A DNA stretch of 16,908 bases from assembly GCA_021817185.1 (NCBI GenBank), contig JAKAVU010000019.1, positions 1-16,908 of the forward strand, in the 5' to 3' direction. Source of the DNA: a bacterium. Its GTDB lineage: Bacteria > Chloroflexota > Dormibacteria > UBA8260 > Bog-877. A program made the position numbers and the translations under genes. The notes beneath the pieces are model-generated. The model had not been told where the DNA came from. It searched no databases and worked only from the letters and a program-made list of their open reading frames with translations. Positions 1,768 through 16,096 of this stretch are shown here, piece after piece. Positions within the stretch are counted from its first letter, which is position 1. The number at the start of each line of letters is the position of its first letter.

Positions 1768-2169
1768 ATGACCAAGGTGCTCTTCGTCTGCGTCCACAAT
1801 GCGGGGCGCTCGCAGATGAGCCGGGCGCTCTTCGAGTTGGCGGCTCAGGGGCGGCACCCATCTGCCTGCGCGGGCACCGACCCGGCCGAGGCGATTCACC
1901 CGCACGTGCTGCAGGCCATGGCCGAGATAGGGGAGGACCTCAGCGGCCGCAGGCCGGCGCTCCTCACTGACGAGTTGGCGCGCTGGGCCGACGTGGTGGT
2001 GACCATGGGCTGTGGCGACCGCTGTCCCTACATCCCGGGCAAGCGTTACATCGAGTGGACCCTGCCGGACCCGAAGGACCGTCCGCTTGAGGACGTGAGA
2101 CGCATCCGCGACGAGATCGGGCGGCGGGTGGCGGCGCTGGTTGAGGAGCTGGACTCCGCGCCGCTCTGA
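1768..2169 (+). CDS. arsC: arsenate reductase / low-molecular-weight phosphatase family (ArsC, LMW-PTP fold)
   Basis: This 133-residue cytoplasmic protein has typical length for the family. The N-terminus carries the phosphate-binding loop VCVHNAGRS, giving C8-X5-R14-S, the catalytic Cys/Arg signature shared by LMW tyrosine phosphatases and thioredoxin- or mycothiol-linked arsenate reductases. Cysteines 82 and 86 (GCGDRCP) lie where the resolving cysteines of Staphylococcus-type ArsC occur, though closer together. A late DP (101-102) after EWTL supplies the expected general acid. These features favour arsenate reduction to arsenite over protein phosphatase activity. No arsenite pump or arsenic-specific ArsR is adjacent, and the ArsR-like gene at 13864 lacks an obvious metal site. 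The start is supported by the -10 element at 1756. The next gene begins 33 bases after the stop. Confidence 0.85.
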   Translation: MTKVLFVCVHNAGRSQMSRALFELAAQGRHPSACAGTDPAEAIHPHVLQAMAEIGEDLSGRRPALLTDELARWADVVVTMGCGDRCPYIPGKRYIEWTLPDPKDRPLEDVRRIRDEIGRRVAALVEELDSAPL

Positions 2170-4113: not shown

Positions 4114-4206
4114 TGGCGGGAAGGGAGGGATTCGAACCCTCGGACGAGGTTAAGCCCCGTCACCCGCTTAGCAGGCGGGCGCTTTCGGCCACTCAGCCAC
4201 CTCCCC
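4114..4206 (-). tRNA. tRNA-Ser(GCT)
   Basis: The minus strand folds into a class II tRNA of 93 bases including an encoded CCA. The acceptor stem GGGGAGG pairs with CCTTCCC (one G-T), with discriminator G. The anticodon stem CCCGC/GCGGG encloses CTGCTAA with anticodon GCT (AGC/AGT codons). A long variable arm follows, and the T arm is GAGGG-TTCGAAT-CCCTC. Confidence 0.97.
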
Positions 4207-7176: not shown

Positions 7177-7254
7177 TGGCGACCCCGAGCGGATTCGAAC
7201 CGCCGATCTCCACCTTGACAGGGTGGCGTGTTGGGCCAGCTACACCACGGGGCC
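7177..7254 (-). tRNA. tRNA-Asp(GTC)
   Basis: This is a 78-base cloverleaf with an encoded CCA. The acceptor GGCCCCG pairs with CGGGGTC (one G-T), with discriminator G. The anticodon stem CCACC/GGTGG encloses CTGTCAA with anticodon GTC. The T loop is TTCGAAT. The 225 bases between its 3' end and the ORF starting at 6951 show no gene I can support. Confidence 0.97.
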
Positions 7255-7368: not shown

Positions 7369-7404
7369 GAATGGTCGAATCATCCGATGCCGGAGTGGGC
7401 GCTG

Positions 7405-8184
7405 TTGAAAATTGCGGTCTTTGTGAAGCAGATCCCCGATCCGTCGGGAGCCGGTGCCCTCGATCCAGCCACCCACCGCCTGGTGCGAGAGGGGGTGGAG
7501 GTGGTGCTCGACCCCGGCGACTCCTATGGGGTGGAGGCGGGGCTGCAGTTGGCCGAGTCCACCGGGTCAGAGGTGGTCGCGATCTCGATGGGAGGGGAGC
7601 GCGCGGTGGAGGTCATCCGCAAGGCGATGGCGATGGGCGCCGCGTCCGGCCTCCACGTGTGCGACGCGCGGCTGGCAGGTGCGGACGCCCTGACCACCGC
7701 GCGGGTGTTGGCGGCCTCCGTGTCTCACACCGGCGCCGAGCTGGTGGTGGCCTGCACCGAGTCCACCGATGGCTACACCGGCACCGTACCCGCCGCGGTC
7801 GCGGAGCTGCTGGGCTGGCCGTCGCTCACCTTCGCCAAGCAGGTGGAGCTGAACGGCCGGACCATCCGGATCCAGCGCCAGACACCCGCCGGGCATGACG
7901 TGGTGGAGGCGGAGCTGCCCGGGGTGGTGACCGTGACCGGGGGCATCAACGAGCCGCGCTATCCCACTCTGAAGGGGATCATGGGGGCCAAGGGCAAGCC
8001 CCTGGAGAGGGTCGACCTGGCCGGCATCGGACTCGACCCCGAGCAGATCGCCGAGGAGATGGGGCACCAGCGAGTGGTCGAGGTGGAACCTGCCCCCGAG
8101 CGCCAGGCCGGGCGGGTGGTCGAGGACGATGGCTCGGCTGCGCAGCTGGTCGCCGACTATCTGGCCGAGCTGAAGGTGATCTGA
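7405..8184 (+). CDS. etfB: electron transfer flavoprotein subunit beta
   Basis: This 259-residue protein starts LKIAVFVKQIPDP, the classic EtfB N-terminus. The start chosen is TTG at 7405 because GGAG lies nine bases upstream and EtfB proteins normally begin with this strand. An ATG at 7387 would add six residues but has no ribosome binding site. The family signatures seen are LDPGDSYGVEAGLQL, an AMP-binding half, and a late ITGGINEPRYPTLKGIMGAK-type motif. EtfB pairs with EtfA to carry electrons from acyl-CoA and other dehydrogenases to ETF:quinone oxidoreductase or another acceptor. etfA begins one base after the stop. The dehydrogenase partner is not in the window. Confidence 0.95.
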   Translation: MKIAVFVKQIPDPSGAGALDPATHRLVREGVEVVLDPGDSYGVEAGLQLAESTGSEVVAISMGGERAVEVIRKAMAMGAASGLHVCDARLAGADALTTARVLAASVSHTGAELVVACTESTDGYTGTVPAAVAELLGWPSLTFAKQVELNGRTIRIQRQTPAGHDVVEAELPGVVTVTGGINEPRYPTLKGIMGAKGKPLERVDLAGIGLDPEQIAEEMGHQRVVEVEPAPERQAGRVVEDDGSAAQLVADYLAELKVI

Positions 8185-8185
8185 T

Positions 8186-9154
8186 ATGCCGAGAATCTGG
8201 GCCTTCGTGGAGATGGCGGGCGACCAGGTGAGCCCGATCTCGCTGGAGATATTGTCCGGGGCTCGGGGGCTAGGCGGCGAGCTGGAGGCGATCGTGCTCG
8301 ATCCCCGGGCGACGGCTGCGGCCGCTGAGCTTGCCGAGTACGGCGCCACCACCGTATACCTCGGCACCGACTCCCAGTACCGCGATCATGTGGCGCAACC
8401 GCACGCGGCCACCCTGGCGGAGCTGGTATCGGAGCACCATCCCGACCTGCTGCTGTTCGGCGCCACCTATGACGGCAGAGACATCTGCGCCCGGCTGTCG
8501 GCACGGCTGGGTCTGACCGTGGTCGCCAACGCCACCGCGGTGAGCCGGTCCGGAGAGGGGTTCGCCATCGCGAGCTCGATCTTCGGGGCGACCCAGAACG
8601 TGACGACCTTGGTCCAGGGGCCGACGCCCTGCGTCTTGATCCGGCCCAAGTCGTACGCCGCTCAGCGTTCGGAGTCTCCCGCCCCTCCCCGGGTGATGGA
8701 TGTGGCAGTGCCCGCAGGGGCTCCACTCGGCGCCCGCAGGATCGAGTCGGTGGTGGCGCCGGCCTCCGGGCCGAAACTGGAGGACGCCCGGGTTGTGGTC
8801 AGCGGTGGCCGCGGGCTGCAGGACCCCGCCAACTTCCACCTGGTGGAGGAGCTGGCGGAGCTTCTCCACGGCGCGGTGGGGGCCAGCCGGGCGGTGGTCG
8901 ATGCGGGCTGGGTGCCCTACTCACGCCAGGTGGGTCAGACCGGTAAGACCGTCAAACCGGACGTCTATCTGGCATGCGGGATCAGCGGTGCCATGCAGCA
9001 CACGGTGGGGATGAAGGGCGCAGCCCACATCGTCGCCATCAACAAGGACCGCGACGCCCCGATCTTCAAGCTCTGCGACCTGGGGATCGTGGGCGACGTG
9101 CTCAAGGTGTTGCCCGCCCTCAGTGCGGAGCTGCGGGCCCGCGGCGCTGGCTGA
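8186..9154 (+). CDS. etfA: electron transfer flavoprotein subunit alpha
   Basis: This 322-residue protein is the FAD-holding subunit. The N-terminal half is the Rossmann-like domain shared with EtfB, with PDLLLFGATYDGRDICARL around 86-104. The C-terminal FAD domain shows the family motifs SGGRG (206-210), RQVGQTGKTVKPDVYLACG (247-265), GISGAMQH (265-272) and IVAINKD (282-288). The length is normal, with no insertion typical of bifurcating Fix-type ETFs, although I have not aligned it. It is the second gene of an apparent operon: etfB precedes it by one base and the FHA gene follows after ten. Confidence 0.96.
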   Translation: MPRIWAFVEMAGDQVSPISLEILSGARGLGGELEAIVLDPRATAAAAELAEYGATTVYLGTDSQYRDHVAQPHAATLAELVSEHHPDLLLFGATYDGRDICARLSARLGLTVVANATAVSRSGEGFAIASSIFGATQNVTTLVQGPTPCVLIRPKSYAAQRSESPAPPRVMDVAVPAGAPLGARRIESVVAPASGPKLEDARVVVSGGRGLQDPANFHLVEELAELLHGAVGASRAVVDAGWVPYSRQVGQTGKTVKPDVYLACGISGAMQHTVGMKGAAHIVAINKDRDAPIFKLCDLGIVGDVLKVLPALSAELRARGAG

Positions 9155-9164
9155 GATCGCGACC

Positions 9165-10481
9165 GTGAGCGGACCCGTGGGGGGGCTGAGCGGCCAACTT
9201 GCGCTGAGGGCTGCGGACGGCGCCACGGTCACCCTGGAACGCTTCCCCATCATCGTGGGCAGGATCACTCCTGAGCAAGGAGTCCCGGATGTTGACCTAA
9301 CCGAGTTTGACCCCCGGGGAGCGGTGGACGGCCGTCACTGCGAGCTCTTCCCCGACCCCGACGGCATCGAGGTGCACGATCTCGGCGCTCCCAACGGCAC
9401 CTGGGTCGAAGGCCACCGACTAAGCCCTGGGGAAAGCGCCCTGCTGCCCGTGGGCGGCCGACTGCGCATCGCGGGAGTGGAGCTGGTCCTGGTGCCCGCG
9501 CCGCCTCGTCGCCAGGTGCCGTCGGCGGACGCGTCCCCAGCGCCCTCGGACTGGCGCGAAGCCTCTCCCTTGACGGGAGTGCCACTTCCCCCGTCGGCCC
9601 GGAGCCCGGACGCGCCATTCATCACCCAGCTCCGGCCCAGTGGGAATCCTGACCTCAGTGCCGCGCCTTCGCTGGTGCGGCCCCATTTGGAGGAGGGGGC
9701 CGAGTCCGTGCGCATCGTCGAGGGCTCTCCGCTGCTGGTGGGCCAGTCCGGTTCTATGGTGAGCCGGGGACAGCCCGTCTCGGCGGCGGTTGTGGAGGAG
9801 GCACTCGCGGCCGCCCGAGCGTCCCTCCAATTGCCCCAGGATGCCGGCTTTGGTTGGGGCTACTCGGGAGATCTCGAGATCGATTTTGTCGCCACGCCGC
9901 CGGCACGCAGGGCCAGCCTCGGGGTCACTCGGTGCTCGACGCCGGCGGTGGCACCTGGGACCTTGGCTGCCGCCGCTTCCTGGGTGGCCGCGGGTGGAGG
10001 GCTGCTGCTGGCGGGCCGGGGCCCGGGGCGGGTCATGAAGGAGCTGGAGCCCGCCCTGCTCAGGGCCGGCCCGCGCCCGTGGGCTCTGTGTGCAGGCGAT
10101 GCCACCTGGATGTCGAGCGGCTGGGTGGAACTGCCCGCCGGGGAGCCAGAGGCGACCACTGCCGCCCTCGAGGGTGATCCGCTGGTGGTCCTTGGTGCCG
10201 ACGACAGAGAGCTGGGAGCGGTCCTCGCTGCCCTACCCAGGACGGCAGGGGGAACCGTGGTCGTCTTGGAGTCGGCCTCTCCGGAGGCCGCTCTGGAGCG
10301 CTGCCACCGTCTCCTTCAGGAGCGGGTGGCGCCGGGTGACCCCAAGCCCCTGAGAGAGGAGGTCGCGCGCCGGCTGCCGCGGCTGCTCACCTGGCGGTCG
10401 ACCCTCCAGTTGGAGTGGTGCTCGGTTCAGGCGCGCCCGGGAGAGGCGGTCTGGATGCTGACCCCTGTGGCGGAGCGCTAA
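9165..10481 (+). CDS. FHA-domain protein with degenerate CpaF/TadA-like (type II/IV secretion ATPase) C-terminal region
   Basis: This 438-residue protein starts at GTG 9165; the frame extends into etfA, but this is the first start after the etfA stop. Residues about 22-110 form an FHA domain, with G32-R33 and N77-G-T79 conserved, while the usual S-x-x-H phosphopeptide motif reads D55-G-R-H58. A Pro/Ser-rich linker (about 111-180) follows. Residues about 181-438 follow the layout of CpaF/TadA pilus ATPases, but the motifs are altered. Where Walker A (GGTGSGKTT-type) belongs is AGRGPGRVM (283-291). The GEVR-type Walker B region reads VVLGADDRE (341-349). The TIHAN-type His box reads VVLESASPEAAL (366-377). 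I therefore infer a catalytically dead, perhaps scaffolding, ATPase fold. The CpaF relationship is my pattern match, not a search result. Confidence 0.8.
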   Translation: MSGPVGGLSGQLALRAADGATVTLERFPIIVGRITPEQGVPDVDLTEFDPRGAVDGRHCELFPDPDGIEVHDLGAPNGTWVEGHRLSPGESALLPVGGRLRIAGVELVLVPAPPRRQVPSADASPAPSDWREASPLTGVPLPPSARSPDAPFITQLRPSGNPDLSAAPSLVRPHLEEGAESVRIVEGSPLLVGQSGSMVSRGQPVSAAVVEEALAAARASLQLPQDAGFGWGYSGDLEIDFVATPPARRASLGVTRCSTPAVAPGTLAAAASWVAAGGGLLLAGRGPGRVMKELEPALLRAGPRPWALCAGDATWMSSGWVELPAGEPEATTAALEGDPLVVLGADDRELGAVLAALPRTAGGTVVVLESASPEAALERCHRLLQERVAPGDPKPLREEVARRLPRLLTWRSTLQLEWCSVQARPGEAVWMLTPVAER

Positions 10482-10484
10482 CCT

Positions 10485-10655
10485 TTGTCCGCCCCAAAGC
10501 TTCCGGCGCCCACGTCGGGCCCTTCCGTCGCCAGCTACCTGGTGCTTTGCGTGCTGGTGGCGGCGGCGGTGCTGCTGGTGCTTTACCTGCTGGGAGCCGC
10601 GATGCCCGGCACGCTGCACGGCTTCCGAGCCGCCTTGGGGTTGCGCCCGTCGTAG
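10485..10655 (+). CDS. small single-pass membrane protein (56 aa)
   Basis: A 57-codon frame opens with TTG three bases after the stop of the FHA/CpaF-like gene. GGAG (10472-10475) lies nine bases upstream, inside the end of the previous gene. The product has a short Pro/Ser-rich N-terminus, one strong hydrophobic helix (about residues 16-40, Leu/Val/Ala) and a short basic tail (HGFRAALGLRPS). The size recalls Flp-type pilins, but the signature Gly-Glu-Tyr processing site is absent, so I do not call it one. The position suggests that it partners the preceding protein at the membrane. Confidence 0.6.
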   Translation: MSAPKLPAPTSGPSVASYLVLCVLVAAAVLLVLYLLGAAMPGTLHGFRAALGLRPS

Positions 10656-10670
10656 TCGGGTGCGAGCGTG

Positions 10671-10676
10671 CACAAT
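10671..10676 (+). promoter_or_regulatory. -10-like element (leaderless type) for the HNH gene
   Basis: CACAAT lies six bases before the ATG at 10683, with no Shine-Dalgarno. It lacks the first consensus T and a -35, so this is a weak call supported mainly by the same spacing at other genes in the window. Confidence 0.3.
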
Positions 10677-10682
10677 GGCAGC

Positions 10683-11264
10683 ATGCCGGTGCTATTGCTC
10701 AGTGCCTCGATGCAGCCGCTCAACGTCATCAGTCGCCGCCGCCTGGTGGTGCTTTTGACCAAGGAGAGGGTGGCGTTCTTCGATGACTCAGACCGGCTCG
10801 CGGTGGAGTGGGAGTTGGCCCATCGCCGCCTCGGAGAGGGCGTGATCGTGGTGCGGCTGCTGCGCAACGTGGTGGTGCCACGGCGCCTCATCCGGGCCAA
10901 CCGGCGCAACCTGCTGCTGCGCGACGACCACACCTGCCAGTACTGCGGGGTCCGGGCCGGACCAGCCGAGCTGACCATCGACCACGTGGTCCCGGTGTCA
11001 CGGGGCGGGGACGCCAACAGCTGGGAGAACCAGGTGGTCGCGTGCAAGCGATGCAACGGCCGTAAGGCCAACCATCTCCCCGAGGAGGTCCACCTGCGGC
11101 TGGCGCGGCCTCCCCGACCGGTGGTCCAGGAGTACGCCCACCTGCTCCTCCTGCGTCACCCGGAGGTGCGGACCGCATACGAGGACCTCCTGCGGTCGGT
11201 GCTGCCGGCCGCGCCGTCGACCGCCGGCGGCGGCGGACGTTTCCTGCAATCCATGGGTTCCTGA
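10683..11264 (+). CDS. HNH endonuclease family protein
   Basis: This 193-residue protein carries a complete HNH nuclease fold with structural zinc cysteines: C85-x2-C88 (CQYC), then the catalytic I-D-H at 99-101 (TIDHVVPVSRGG), N116 in NSWEN, and C121-x2-C124-N125 (CKRCN). The N-terminal 70 residues (LLLSASMQPLNVISRRRLVVLL) are the conserved lead-in of the widespread actinobacterial/cyanobacterial HNH housekeeping family, whose role is unsettled. The genes are not flanked by a methyltransferase or phage genes, so restriction or phage functions are not indicated. The ATG at 10683 matches the usual start of the family; a GTG at 10668 is possible. It converges on the RapZ-like gene with 19 bases between stops. 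Confidence 0.9.
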   Translation: MPVLLLSASMQPLNVISRRRLVVLLTKERVAFFDDSDRLAVEWELAHRRLGEGVIVVRLLRNVVVPRRLIRANRRNLLLRDDHTCQYCGVRAGPAELTIDHVVPVSRGGDANSWENQVVACKRCNGRKANHLPEEVHLRLARPPRPVVQEYAHLLLLRHPEVRTAYEDLLRSVLPAAPSTAGGGGRFLQSMGS

Positions 11265-11283: not shown

Positions 11284-12036
11284 TCAGTCCAGCGCTTGAG
11301 GCAGGTGCAGGGGCGGCTGGTCCAGCAGGCGGGCGGTGGCCCTGCCCGAGGAATTGATGAGATCGACGAGCTCACACGCGATGGCGACCGAGCGGTGCTT
11401 CCCCCCGGTGCACCCGATGGCGACCCTCAGCACCGAGCGCCGCTGGGCCTGATACAGGTCGAGCAGGTCCAGCAGCATCGGCAGAAAGCACTCGACGAGC
11501 CGCTGGGCGCCGGGCTGCGCCATGATGTGGCGGCGGACCATCGGGTCCTTGCCGGAGCGCTGGCGCATATCGGGGATCCAGTAGGGGCTGTCCAGAAAGC
11601 GGGTGTCCAGCACCCAGTCGGACTCCTCCGGGAGACCATCTCGGAACCCGAAGGTGAAGCAATCCACCCGCACCTGCTCGCGGTCCCTCCAGTCATCGAG
11701 CAGCTGGGAGAGGTAGGCCGTGGTCGACCGATCCAGCCCCAGGAGGTGGCGGTGGGGCTGGCGGACCGGCGGCTTGAGGGCGGCGCCCCGGGGGCTGCCG
11801 ACCTGCACCAGCCAATAGCGGACCTGACGGTCGTCGAGTACTCTGCCGAGCGTCGGGTTCGTCCTCTCGGTGACCAAGAAGGCGAGGTCTGGGCTCGTCG
11901 CCAGCATCCCGCTCACCTCGGCCTCAAGGGTTCCAGCCGCGCCGCCCACTTCCCCCACAGCGAACCCGGCCGCGACCGCCAGCTCCTCCAGCTCCTCGCG
12001 GTAGCGCTCCTCGGTCAGGATCAGAACCAAAGACAA
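11284..12036 (-). CDS. RapZ C-terminal-domain protein lacking the RapZ P-loop domain
   Basis: This 250-residue protein starts at TTG 12036, with GGGAG eight bases upstream. Its C-terminal half (about 115-250) is clearly the RapZ/YvcJ C-terminal domain, containing FTFGFRDGLP, VLDTRFLDSPYW, a long PMLLDLLDLY helix and the invariant IGCTGGKHRS loop that in Escherichia coli RapZ lies in the RNA- and glucosamine-6-phosphate-binding domain. RapZ proteins normally begin with a GxSGSGKS nucleotide-binding domain of about 150 residues. Here no Walker A exists, and the first about 90 residues read as a different alpha/beta unit (LVLILTEERYREELEELA, then LAFLVTERTNP and RYWLVQVGSP). The usual neighbours uvrC, yvcK and whiA are absent. 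I infer a nucleotide-independent sensor or RNA-binding relative. Confidence 0.85.
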   Translation of the reverse strand: MSLVLILTEERYREELEELAVAAGFAVGEVGGAAGTLEAEVSGMLATSPDLAFLVTERTNPTLGRVLDDRQVRYWLVQVGSPRGAALKPPVRQPHRHLLGLDRSTTAYLSQLLDDWRDREQVRVDCFTFGFRDGLPEESDWVLDTRFLDSPYWIPDMRQRSGKDPMVRRHIMAQPGAQRLVECFLPMLLDLLDLYQAQRRSVLRVAIGCTGGKHRSVAIACELVDLINSSGRATARLLDQPPLHLPQALD

Positions 12037-12434
12037 GGCTTGCTCTCCCTGGAGACAGCGCCGACACCACCCCCAAATTGGCCGAAACCGGGTGGGCCTC
12101 CCCGCCCGCCCCCAGTAGTGACGCGGACATTCTCGCAGAATCCCGGGCGTGACCCCGGGTTTCCTACTTCCACGTCCTCCGATCGCTGCTGCGGCACGAC
12201 CCACCGCCGCCACTGCGCCAGCTGCGTCCACTCCACGCAGGTTCGGCCGTTCCCGGGCTAGGCACGGGAGGCGAGATGCCTGCGCCGATGCCGGACCACC
12301 GATCCAGCCGGTGGGCTCCAGGAGATCCCGGTTGCCGCTGCCGAGCCACCCGCCCGCCGCGGCCGGCTCTTGTGGGCGGGCCGCACCGCTGGTTGGCGGC
12401 TTCCCCGCCCTGGATGCGACGGCTTGGTGACCGA
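12037..12434. other. intergenic stretch with no supported gene
   Basis: About 400 bases upstream of the RapZ-like gene hold only short frames of Pro/Arg/Ala-rich shadow type on both strands. I see no RNA gene, clear promoter or repeat. Confidence 0.4.
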
Positions 12435-16019: not shown

Positions 16020-16096
16020 TGGTCGGCCCGGTGGGACTTGAACCCACGACCTGAGCTTTATAAGAGCCCCGCTCTAACCAACTGAGCTACGGGCCG
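16020..16096 (-). tRNA. tRNA-Ile(TAT), reading AUA
   Basis: This is a 77-base cloverleaf with an encoded CCA. The acceptor CGGCCCG pairs with CGGGCCG (seven pairs), with discriminator A as expected for Ile. The D stem is GCTC/GAGC. The anticodon stem GGGCT/AGCTC (one G-T) encloses the loop CTTATAA, so positions 34-36 are TAT. The T arm is GTGGG-TTCAAGT-CCCAC. Shifting the stem by one breaks pairing and the T33 rule, so the anticodon reading is firm. A T5 run follows the CCA directly and may aid termination. Confidence 0.93.

Follow-up and report, generated by a model that had tools for sequence, protein, structure and literature searches.

The stretch of DNA analysed here (the window, 16,908 nucleotides of contig JAKAVU010000019.1) carries, directly behind the electron transfer flavoprotein (ETF) genes etfB and etfA, a gene for a protein that joins an N-terminal FHA domain to a long C-terminal region. 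The first-pass annotation had described this region as a CpaF-like ATPase with altered catalytic motifs. Based on sequence comparisons and predicted models, the C-terminal region is better named a CpaF-derived pseudo-ATPase than a CpaF, because it appears to keep the shape of an FHA-CpaF fusion while the defining catalytic features are absent.

The reading frame is open from a GTG at 9123 and closes with the stop codon at 10479-10481, giving 438 residues if counted from the GTG at 9165. Homologues mostly begin at residue 8, which is a CTG codon in the window, so the start is uncertain and either GTG 9165 or GTG 9177 could be used. The protein (the FHA protein hereafter) would be divided as follows:

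9165-10481, plus strand: FHA-linker-pseudoCpaF protein, 438 residues, start at GTG 9165 or GTG 9177
9192-9497, plus strand: FHA domain, residues about 10-111 (Pfam FHA)
9498-9641, plus strand: linker of low confidence, residues 112-159, with pLDDT < 50 at residues 116-159
9642-9932, plus strand: region equivalent to the N-terminal domain (NTD) of CpaF, residues about 160-256, boundary approximate (AF2 models, structural alignments)
9933-10478, plus strand: RecA-type core equivalent to the CpaF ATPase domain, without the Walker A Lys-Thr or the His box
10011-10037, plus strand: site of the lost Walker A, AGRGPGRVM, residues 283-291 (GK[ST] in 0/19 homologues)
10269-10277, plus strand: site of the lost His (HAN) box, ESA, residues 369-371, in register with the CpaF HAN in the profile alignment

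Fold, lost motifs and conservation

Foldseek and structural realignment of predicted models reveal an NTD and a RecA-type ATPase fold in the C-terminal region, with the match beginning at CpaF residue 147-148. Nothing in the model corresponds to the three-helix bundle found before the NTD of CpaF: no helices appear between residues 112 and 171, a segment partly of low confidence. No significant Pfam match is obtained for this part, either in the window protein or in nine members of alignment A1. The structure comparison together with the profile results given below places the likeness to CpaF, which the first-pass annotation had proposed, beyond chance.

The motif losses were followed in an alignment of 19 sequences (A2), made of the window protein, five database proteins and 13 loci in which the contig covers the gene. 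GK[ST] is absent in 19/19, and the H-[AVT]-[NT] triplet is likewise missing in all, although two of the 19 nonetheless have His at 371. The segment AGRGPGRVM stands at 283-291 as annotated, but reading the Walker A Lys and Thr as Arg and Val needs a one-residue gap; without it, these positions fall on Val290 and Met291. At the Lys position (290, ungapped) only Val, Ile, Ala or Leu are found in the 19 sequences, Arg occupies 289 in ten of them, and six have no Lys at all after residue 150. The replacement of the HAN box by ESA at 369-371 is reproduced by the alignment of the family profile with that of CpaF, whereas for the GEVR region, read before as GADDRE (present at 344-349), the same alignment points one residue earlier, to LGAD at 343-346. 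In CpaF, the Walker A residues are K287 and T288 and the arginine fingers R217, R223 and R347; no counterparts of the fingers are seen by eye in alignment A3, which is uncertain there. Because the catalytic motifs are gone across the family, a local sequence error or frameshift, which the first-pass annotation had named as a possible cause, is rejected.

The FHA domain is better preserved. Pfam FHA scores above its cut-off at residues 30-102 (E 1.7e-8, 35.2 bits against 20.7), the predicted model matches FHA chains with a root-mean-square deviation of 1.8-3.3 over 89-107 residues, and the motifs GR (32-33) and NGT (77-79) are where they had been reported. FHA domains contact phosphothreonine peptides through an Arg, a Ser and an Asn. 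In the family, Arg33 is present in 19/19, the Ser in 0/19 and Asn77 in 2/19, so the set of phosphothreonine contacts is incomplete; the Ser position holds Asp in 16 sequences, including Asp55 of the window (9327-9329, the substitution already noticed in S-x-x-H), and Ala in three. The FHA regulators GarA and OdhI, found among the PDB matches, share the fold but, unlike the FHA protein, have the phosphothreonine-binding residues and no ATPase-like region.

Mean pairwise identity is highest in the FHA domain (0.71), followed by the NTD (0.49), core (0.38), linker (0.35) and tail (0.26). The ratio of nonsynonymous to synonymous change (dN/dS), counted on five pairs among L006, L007, L009, L012 and L013, a single subgroup without the window sequence, is 0.14-0.26 for the whole gene, and by part 0.03-0.08 for FHA, 0.22-0.39 for the linker, 0.07-0.23 for the NTD and 0.14-0.34 for the core, the neighbouring genes etfA and HNH giving 0.09-0.17 and 0.05-0.10. 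Since the ratio is low in each part, the FHA protein is under purifying selection throughout.

Relatives and the sequence bridge to CpaF

A protein database search returned nine matches, one of them the protein of the window itself, and a scan of genome contigs gave 24 loci, of which 18 (L001-L018) are family members; L019-L024 were rejected, their match being confined to the FHA part. All 18 genomes belong to one class, that of genome G003, and are metagenome-assembled or titled as uncultured bins. Three database proteins were left out of A2: P0004 (98.6% identity with L001), P0006 (99.8% with L002) and P0009 (77% with L003). None of the three has GK[ST] or the His triplet, and all carry Asp in place of the FHA Ser. 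L011 and L015-L018 were omitted because they are cut by a contig end or a stretch of N, the apparent truncation of L016 being due to a run of N within the gene.

Compared directly, the family profile and a profile of 19 CpaF-type sequences from the same genomes match weakly, with a raw score of 24.4 against a maximum of 19.6 in shuffles. When A2 was run against 400 genomes of the phylum, with at most four candidates scored per genome, a distant relative was revealed in genome G063 (P0011, locus L057), and a protein search with this relative added two further bridging FHA proteins, P0012 and P0013, the latter labelled in its source as FHA/type IV secretory pathway ATPase VirB11. Like the family, these proteins combine FHA with a CpaF-like region; the difference is that the bridge retains the canonical FHA Ser and a degenerate but recognisable Walker A, with Arg for Lys (G-R-T). 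The bridge matches CpaF (hhalign probability 98.3%, E 2.4e-14, raw score 107 against a maximum of 20.2 in 20 shuffles), and the family matches the bridge with a raw score of 33.9 over 226 columns (maximum of 15.5 in 20 shuffles), P0011 being aligned almost end to end with the family and the C-terminal parts being colinear. By these sequence comparisons, the family is the far end of a series that goes from intact CpaF through half-degenerate to fully degenerate FHA-CpaF. The gene of P0011 lies on a different contig from the etfBA pair of G063. Near this bridging gene, a stretch of G063 (L075:16190-19001) contains a gene for a protein that combines FHA with an M50 peptidase-like region, and a protein kinase domain gene truncated where the fetched sequence stops.

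Fusions of this kind are known. Class III CpaF proteins have the order FHA-IDR-3HB-NTD-CAD (PMC12019362), and the FHA protein resembles them in its N-terminal FHA domain, disordered linker, NTD and RecA-type fold, differing from them in lacking the Walker A Lys-Thr, the His box, a visible three-helix bundle and a Tad locus. KilF of Myxococcus xanthus, a CpaF with an N-terminal FHA domain, is described as the hexameric ATPase at the centre of a Tad-like apparatus (PMC8460266); it shares the FHA and CpaF-type regions with the FHA protein, whereas the latter has lost the ATP site and has no recognised pilus genes nearby.

Gene neighbourhood and the small membrane protein

The genes around the FHA protein are the following:

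7387-8184, plus strand: etfB, electron transfer flavoprotein beta (Pfam ETF, E 2.2e-36)
8186-9154, plus strand: etfA, electron transfer flavoprotein alpha (Pfam ETF_alpha, E 1.7e-38)
10485-10655, plus strand: open reading frame (ORF) for a 56-residue membrane protein, TTG start, one likely membrane span by inspection
10668-11264, plus strand: HNH endonuclease gene (Pfam HNH_5, E 2.8e-12), last same-strand gene of the conserved block
11284-12231, minus strand: RapZ C-terminal-domain protein, a convergent and conserved neighbour (Pfam PapZ_C, E 3.3e-31)

The position directly behind etfBA, annotated from the window, is conserved: etfA lies directly upstream of the family gene in 18/18 loci (gaps of 4-67 nt), so that homologues with the same motif losses do occur behind etfA in relatives, as the annotation had proposed to check. 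Also, etfB is upstream in 17 of the 18 relatives, the contig of L004 starting inside etfA, and the HNH gene keeps its place in 14; in the remaining four, the contig stops within the FHA gene. A Pfam scan of 16 ORFs of the window recognised no pilus genes, in agreement with the earlier description. The window also holds tRNA-Ser (4114-4206), tRNA-Asp (7177-7254) and tRNA-Ile (16020-16096, minus strand), and a low molecular weight protein phosphatase domain protein (1768-2169, plus strand) with homologues in 11 of the 18 related loci.

The membrane protein annotated next to the FHA gene is present and conserved, following the FHA gene in the window and in 14 loci (L001-L010, L012, L013, L014 and L016). 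Its N-terminal motif LPxPTSGPxVxxY (10500-10538) precedes the membrane span and holds over 17/17 sequences. LPxPTSGPSVxxY is invariant in the 12 rows of alignment A4 while the codons vary, and in three copies that diverge further (L014 and the ones in genomes G011 and G017) the second Ser is replaced by Gly or Ala. All ten pairs counted show more synonymous than nonsynonymous change. The segment could be an FHA ligand or an independent element. At E <= 1e-10 the small protein is found in 16 of the 18 family genomes and in none of the 92 other genomes of the class, the next match having E 1.3e-4; in the two family genomes without a match (G015 and G018) the FHA gene is at a contig end. At E <= 1, 86 of 110 class genomes show some match, 16 of them strong. 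Ten of the weaker places were fetched and are unrelated in context: none lies beside etfBA, HNH or the FHA family, and seven are near an ABC-transporter ATPase.

The scaffold could be real but unrelated to ETF, merely sharing the promoter of a housekeeping operon, and we consider this unlikely. The slot behind etfA varies between lineages, because other class members carry different genes there: among 16 of their etfA regions the FHA family is found in none, and a GAF sensor kinase in eight, with other genes elsewhere (the contig of L147 ends too soon). However, every contig of the lineage that is long enough shows the uninterrupted order etfB-etfA-FHA-membrane protein-HNH, the genes being a few tens of bases apart. 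The GAF histidine kinase (MDDKVIVDLLGQVG...) follows etfBA in L141, L143, L145, L146, L148, L149, L153 and L155, with one ORF between in L145, and was confirmed by Pfam in one locus; in several of these loci a response regulator comes next, which would be a different signalling attachment behind etfA.

Scaffold or engine

The analysis covered 110 genomes of the class, 18 with the family and 92 others; their search with A2 scored at most 15 candidates per genome, so remote members elsewhere may be missed. A second alternative relates the FHA protein to a real Tad pilus, as a dead subunit that joins or caps the rings of an intact CpaF encoded elsewhere. It is common for inactive subunits to modulate active relatives, and a T2SSE match over the cut-off exists in 18/18 family genomes; in each genome, at least one of these proteins has a canonical Walker A. 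Moreover, G003 has a Tad locus with two CpaF-type T2SSE genes, RcpC, a TadZ-like protein and two T2SSF genes. The TadZ-like protein (L110:4708-5928) fuses an N-terminal response-regulator domain to a ParA-type ATPase. Nonetheless, T2SSE ATPases occur in 109 of the 110 class genomes irrespective of the family, so no special link to Tad is apparent and a phyletic one is rejected. Also, the FHA gene stays behind etfA in every locus whereas the Tad locus examined, that of G003, is on another contig, and the three-helix bundle of CpaF is missing from the model. This alternative would likewise have only a small chance of being correct.

The version favoured by the first-pass annotation, a link to Ser/Thr-kinase signalling, would have the FHA domain still docking phosphoproteins and the C-terminal part as a passive module. 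Consistent with it are the Pfam FHA match, the invariant Arg33 and the bridging relative P0011, which has the canonical Ser and a kinase-domain gene about 8 kb away on the same contig; also, PF00069 at E <= 0.001 matches 13 of the 18 hosts, nearly all partially. On the other side stand the change of Ser to Asp or Ala, the rarity of Asn77 and the scarcity of kinases. Exactly one FHA domain (PF00498) is found in each of the 18 family genomes, the one behind etfA, and at E <= 1e-10 PF00069 is absent from 17 of them (G008 alone has one) against 23 of the 92 other class genomes, 69 of which have one (Fisher 3e-8, without correction for kinship). With the FHA site altered and kinases scarce in the hosts, the link to kinase signalling is weakened and not supported, and we regard this adaptor as improbable.

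An NTPase still active with a replaced nucleotide site is very improbable: the Arg at 289 of ten sequences could contact phosphate, but no basic residue is conserved at or beside the Lys position, six members have no Lys in the whole region, and the His-box triplet is gone even if two sequences keep a His. Finally, a decaying gene, to which the faster divergence of the core relative to FHA (dN/dS up to 0.34) might point, is hardly tenable, being refuted, unless the counts are wrong, by a dN/dS below 0.4 in every part and pair of the five loci; open frames are also full-length in 13/13 relatives with the gene complete and gap-free on the contig.

The FHA protein is probably a scaffold and not an engine. 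The explanation we prefer, with a probability of about 0.55, is a retired motor kept as a scaffold or binding platform and descended from an FHA-CpaF fusion; of the original pseudo-ATPase scaffold proposal, the CpaF-like fold with lost motifs stands, and the scaffold role is what we infer. The ancestor would have been a fusion with the architecture of class III CpaF. It would have lost the ATP site and the catalytic motifs, along with the phosphothreonine contacts usual for an FHA domain, and a single bacterial lineage would have retained it as a binding platform co-expressed with etfBA. The present protein would neither hydrolyse ATP nor read phosphothreonine; instead, its highly conserved FHA face may bind a fixed partner without phosphorylation. 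This partner would most likely be the LPxPTSGPxVxxY segment before the membrane span of the small protein, with LPAPTSGPSVASY as candidate docking peptide. The pseudo-ATPase, possibly still oligomeric, would then be held at the membrane by the small protein and organise a client, which may be ETF and a membrane acceptor, or something unrelated.

Several observations weigh against this explanation. The direct comparison of the family with CpaF reaches a probability of 1.7% (P 0.03, 73 columns), that with the bridge 31%, the bridge itself being three sequences, and Pfam T2SSE matches none of 12 family members scanned and stays below the cut-off (24.9 bits) even in the bridge proteins (16.3, 16.1 and 13.4 bits). 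Because Gly32, Arg33, His58 and Thr79 are retained in 19/19, as is Gly78, some phosphopeptide binding by the FHA domain may persist. The partial kinase matches count here as well: two hosts pass the Pfam cut-off for PF00069 (G008 by a clear margin, with the match at a contig edge, and G003 by 0.1 bit), absences may be gaps since the hosts are metagenome-assembled genomes, and PF00069 does not cover every kinase type. Moreover, binding to the membrane peptide and a role with ETF come from inference.

A more specific proposal seems quite unlikely when taken as a whole. A lineage shedding its Ser/Thr kinases would have converted a pilus motor gated by phosphothreonine into a membrane platform with both functions dead; its FHA face, with Asp for Ser, would grip the unphosphorylated, near-invariant PTSGP peptide of the membrane microprotein, while the dead core would tether the ETF of the same operon to a membrane acceptor.

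Pseudo-kinases are well studied. In the open-licence literature, no report was found of a conserved pseudo-motor in the secretion ATPase superfamily, none linking Dormibacterota with FHA or Dormibacteraeota with type IV pili, and, in titles and the starts of abstracts, none joining electron transfer flavoprotein with an FHA domain in this sense. The family offers, within one class, a graded series of intact CpaF, half-degenerate FHA-CpaF with G-R-T and a fully degenerate form. Strong selection maintains its FHA domain in genomes where strong Hanks-type kinase matches are almost absent, and a membrane microprotein with a near-invariant peptide is strictly linked to it. This makes the family a clear and testable case for phosphorylation-independent FHA binding.
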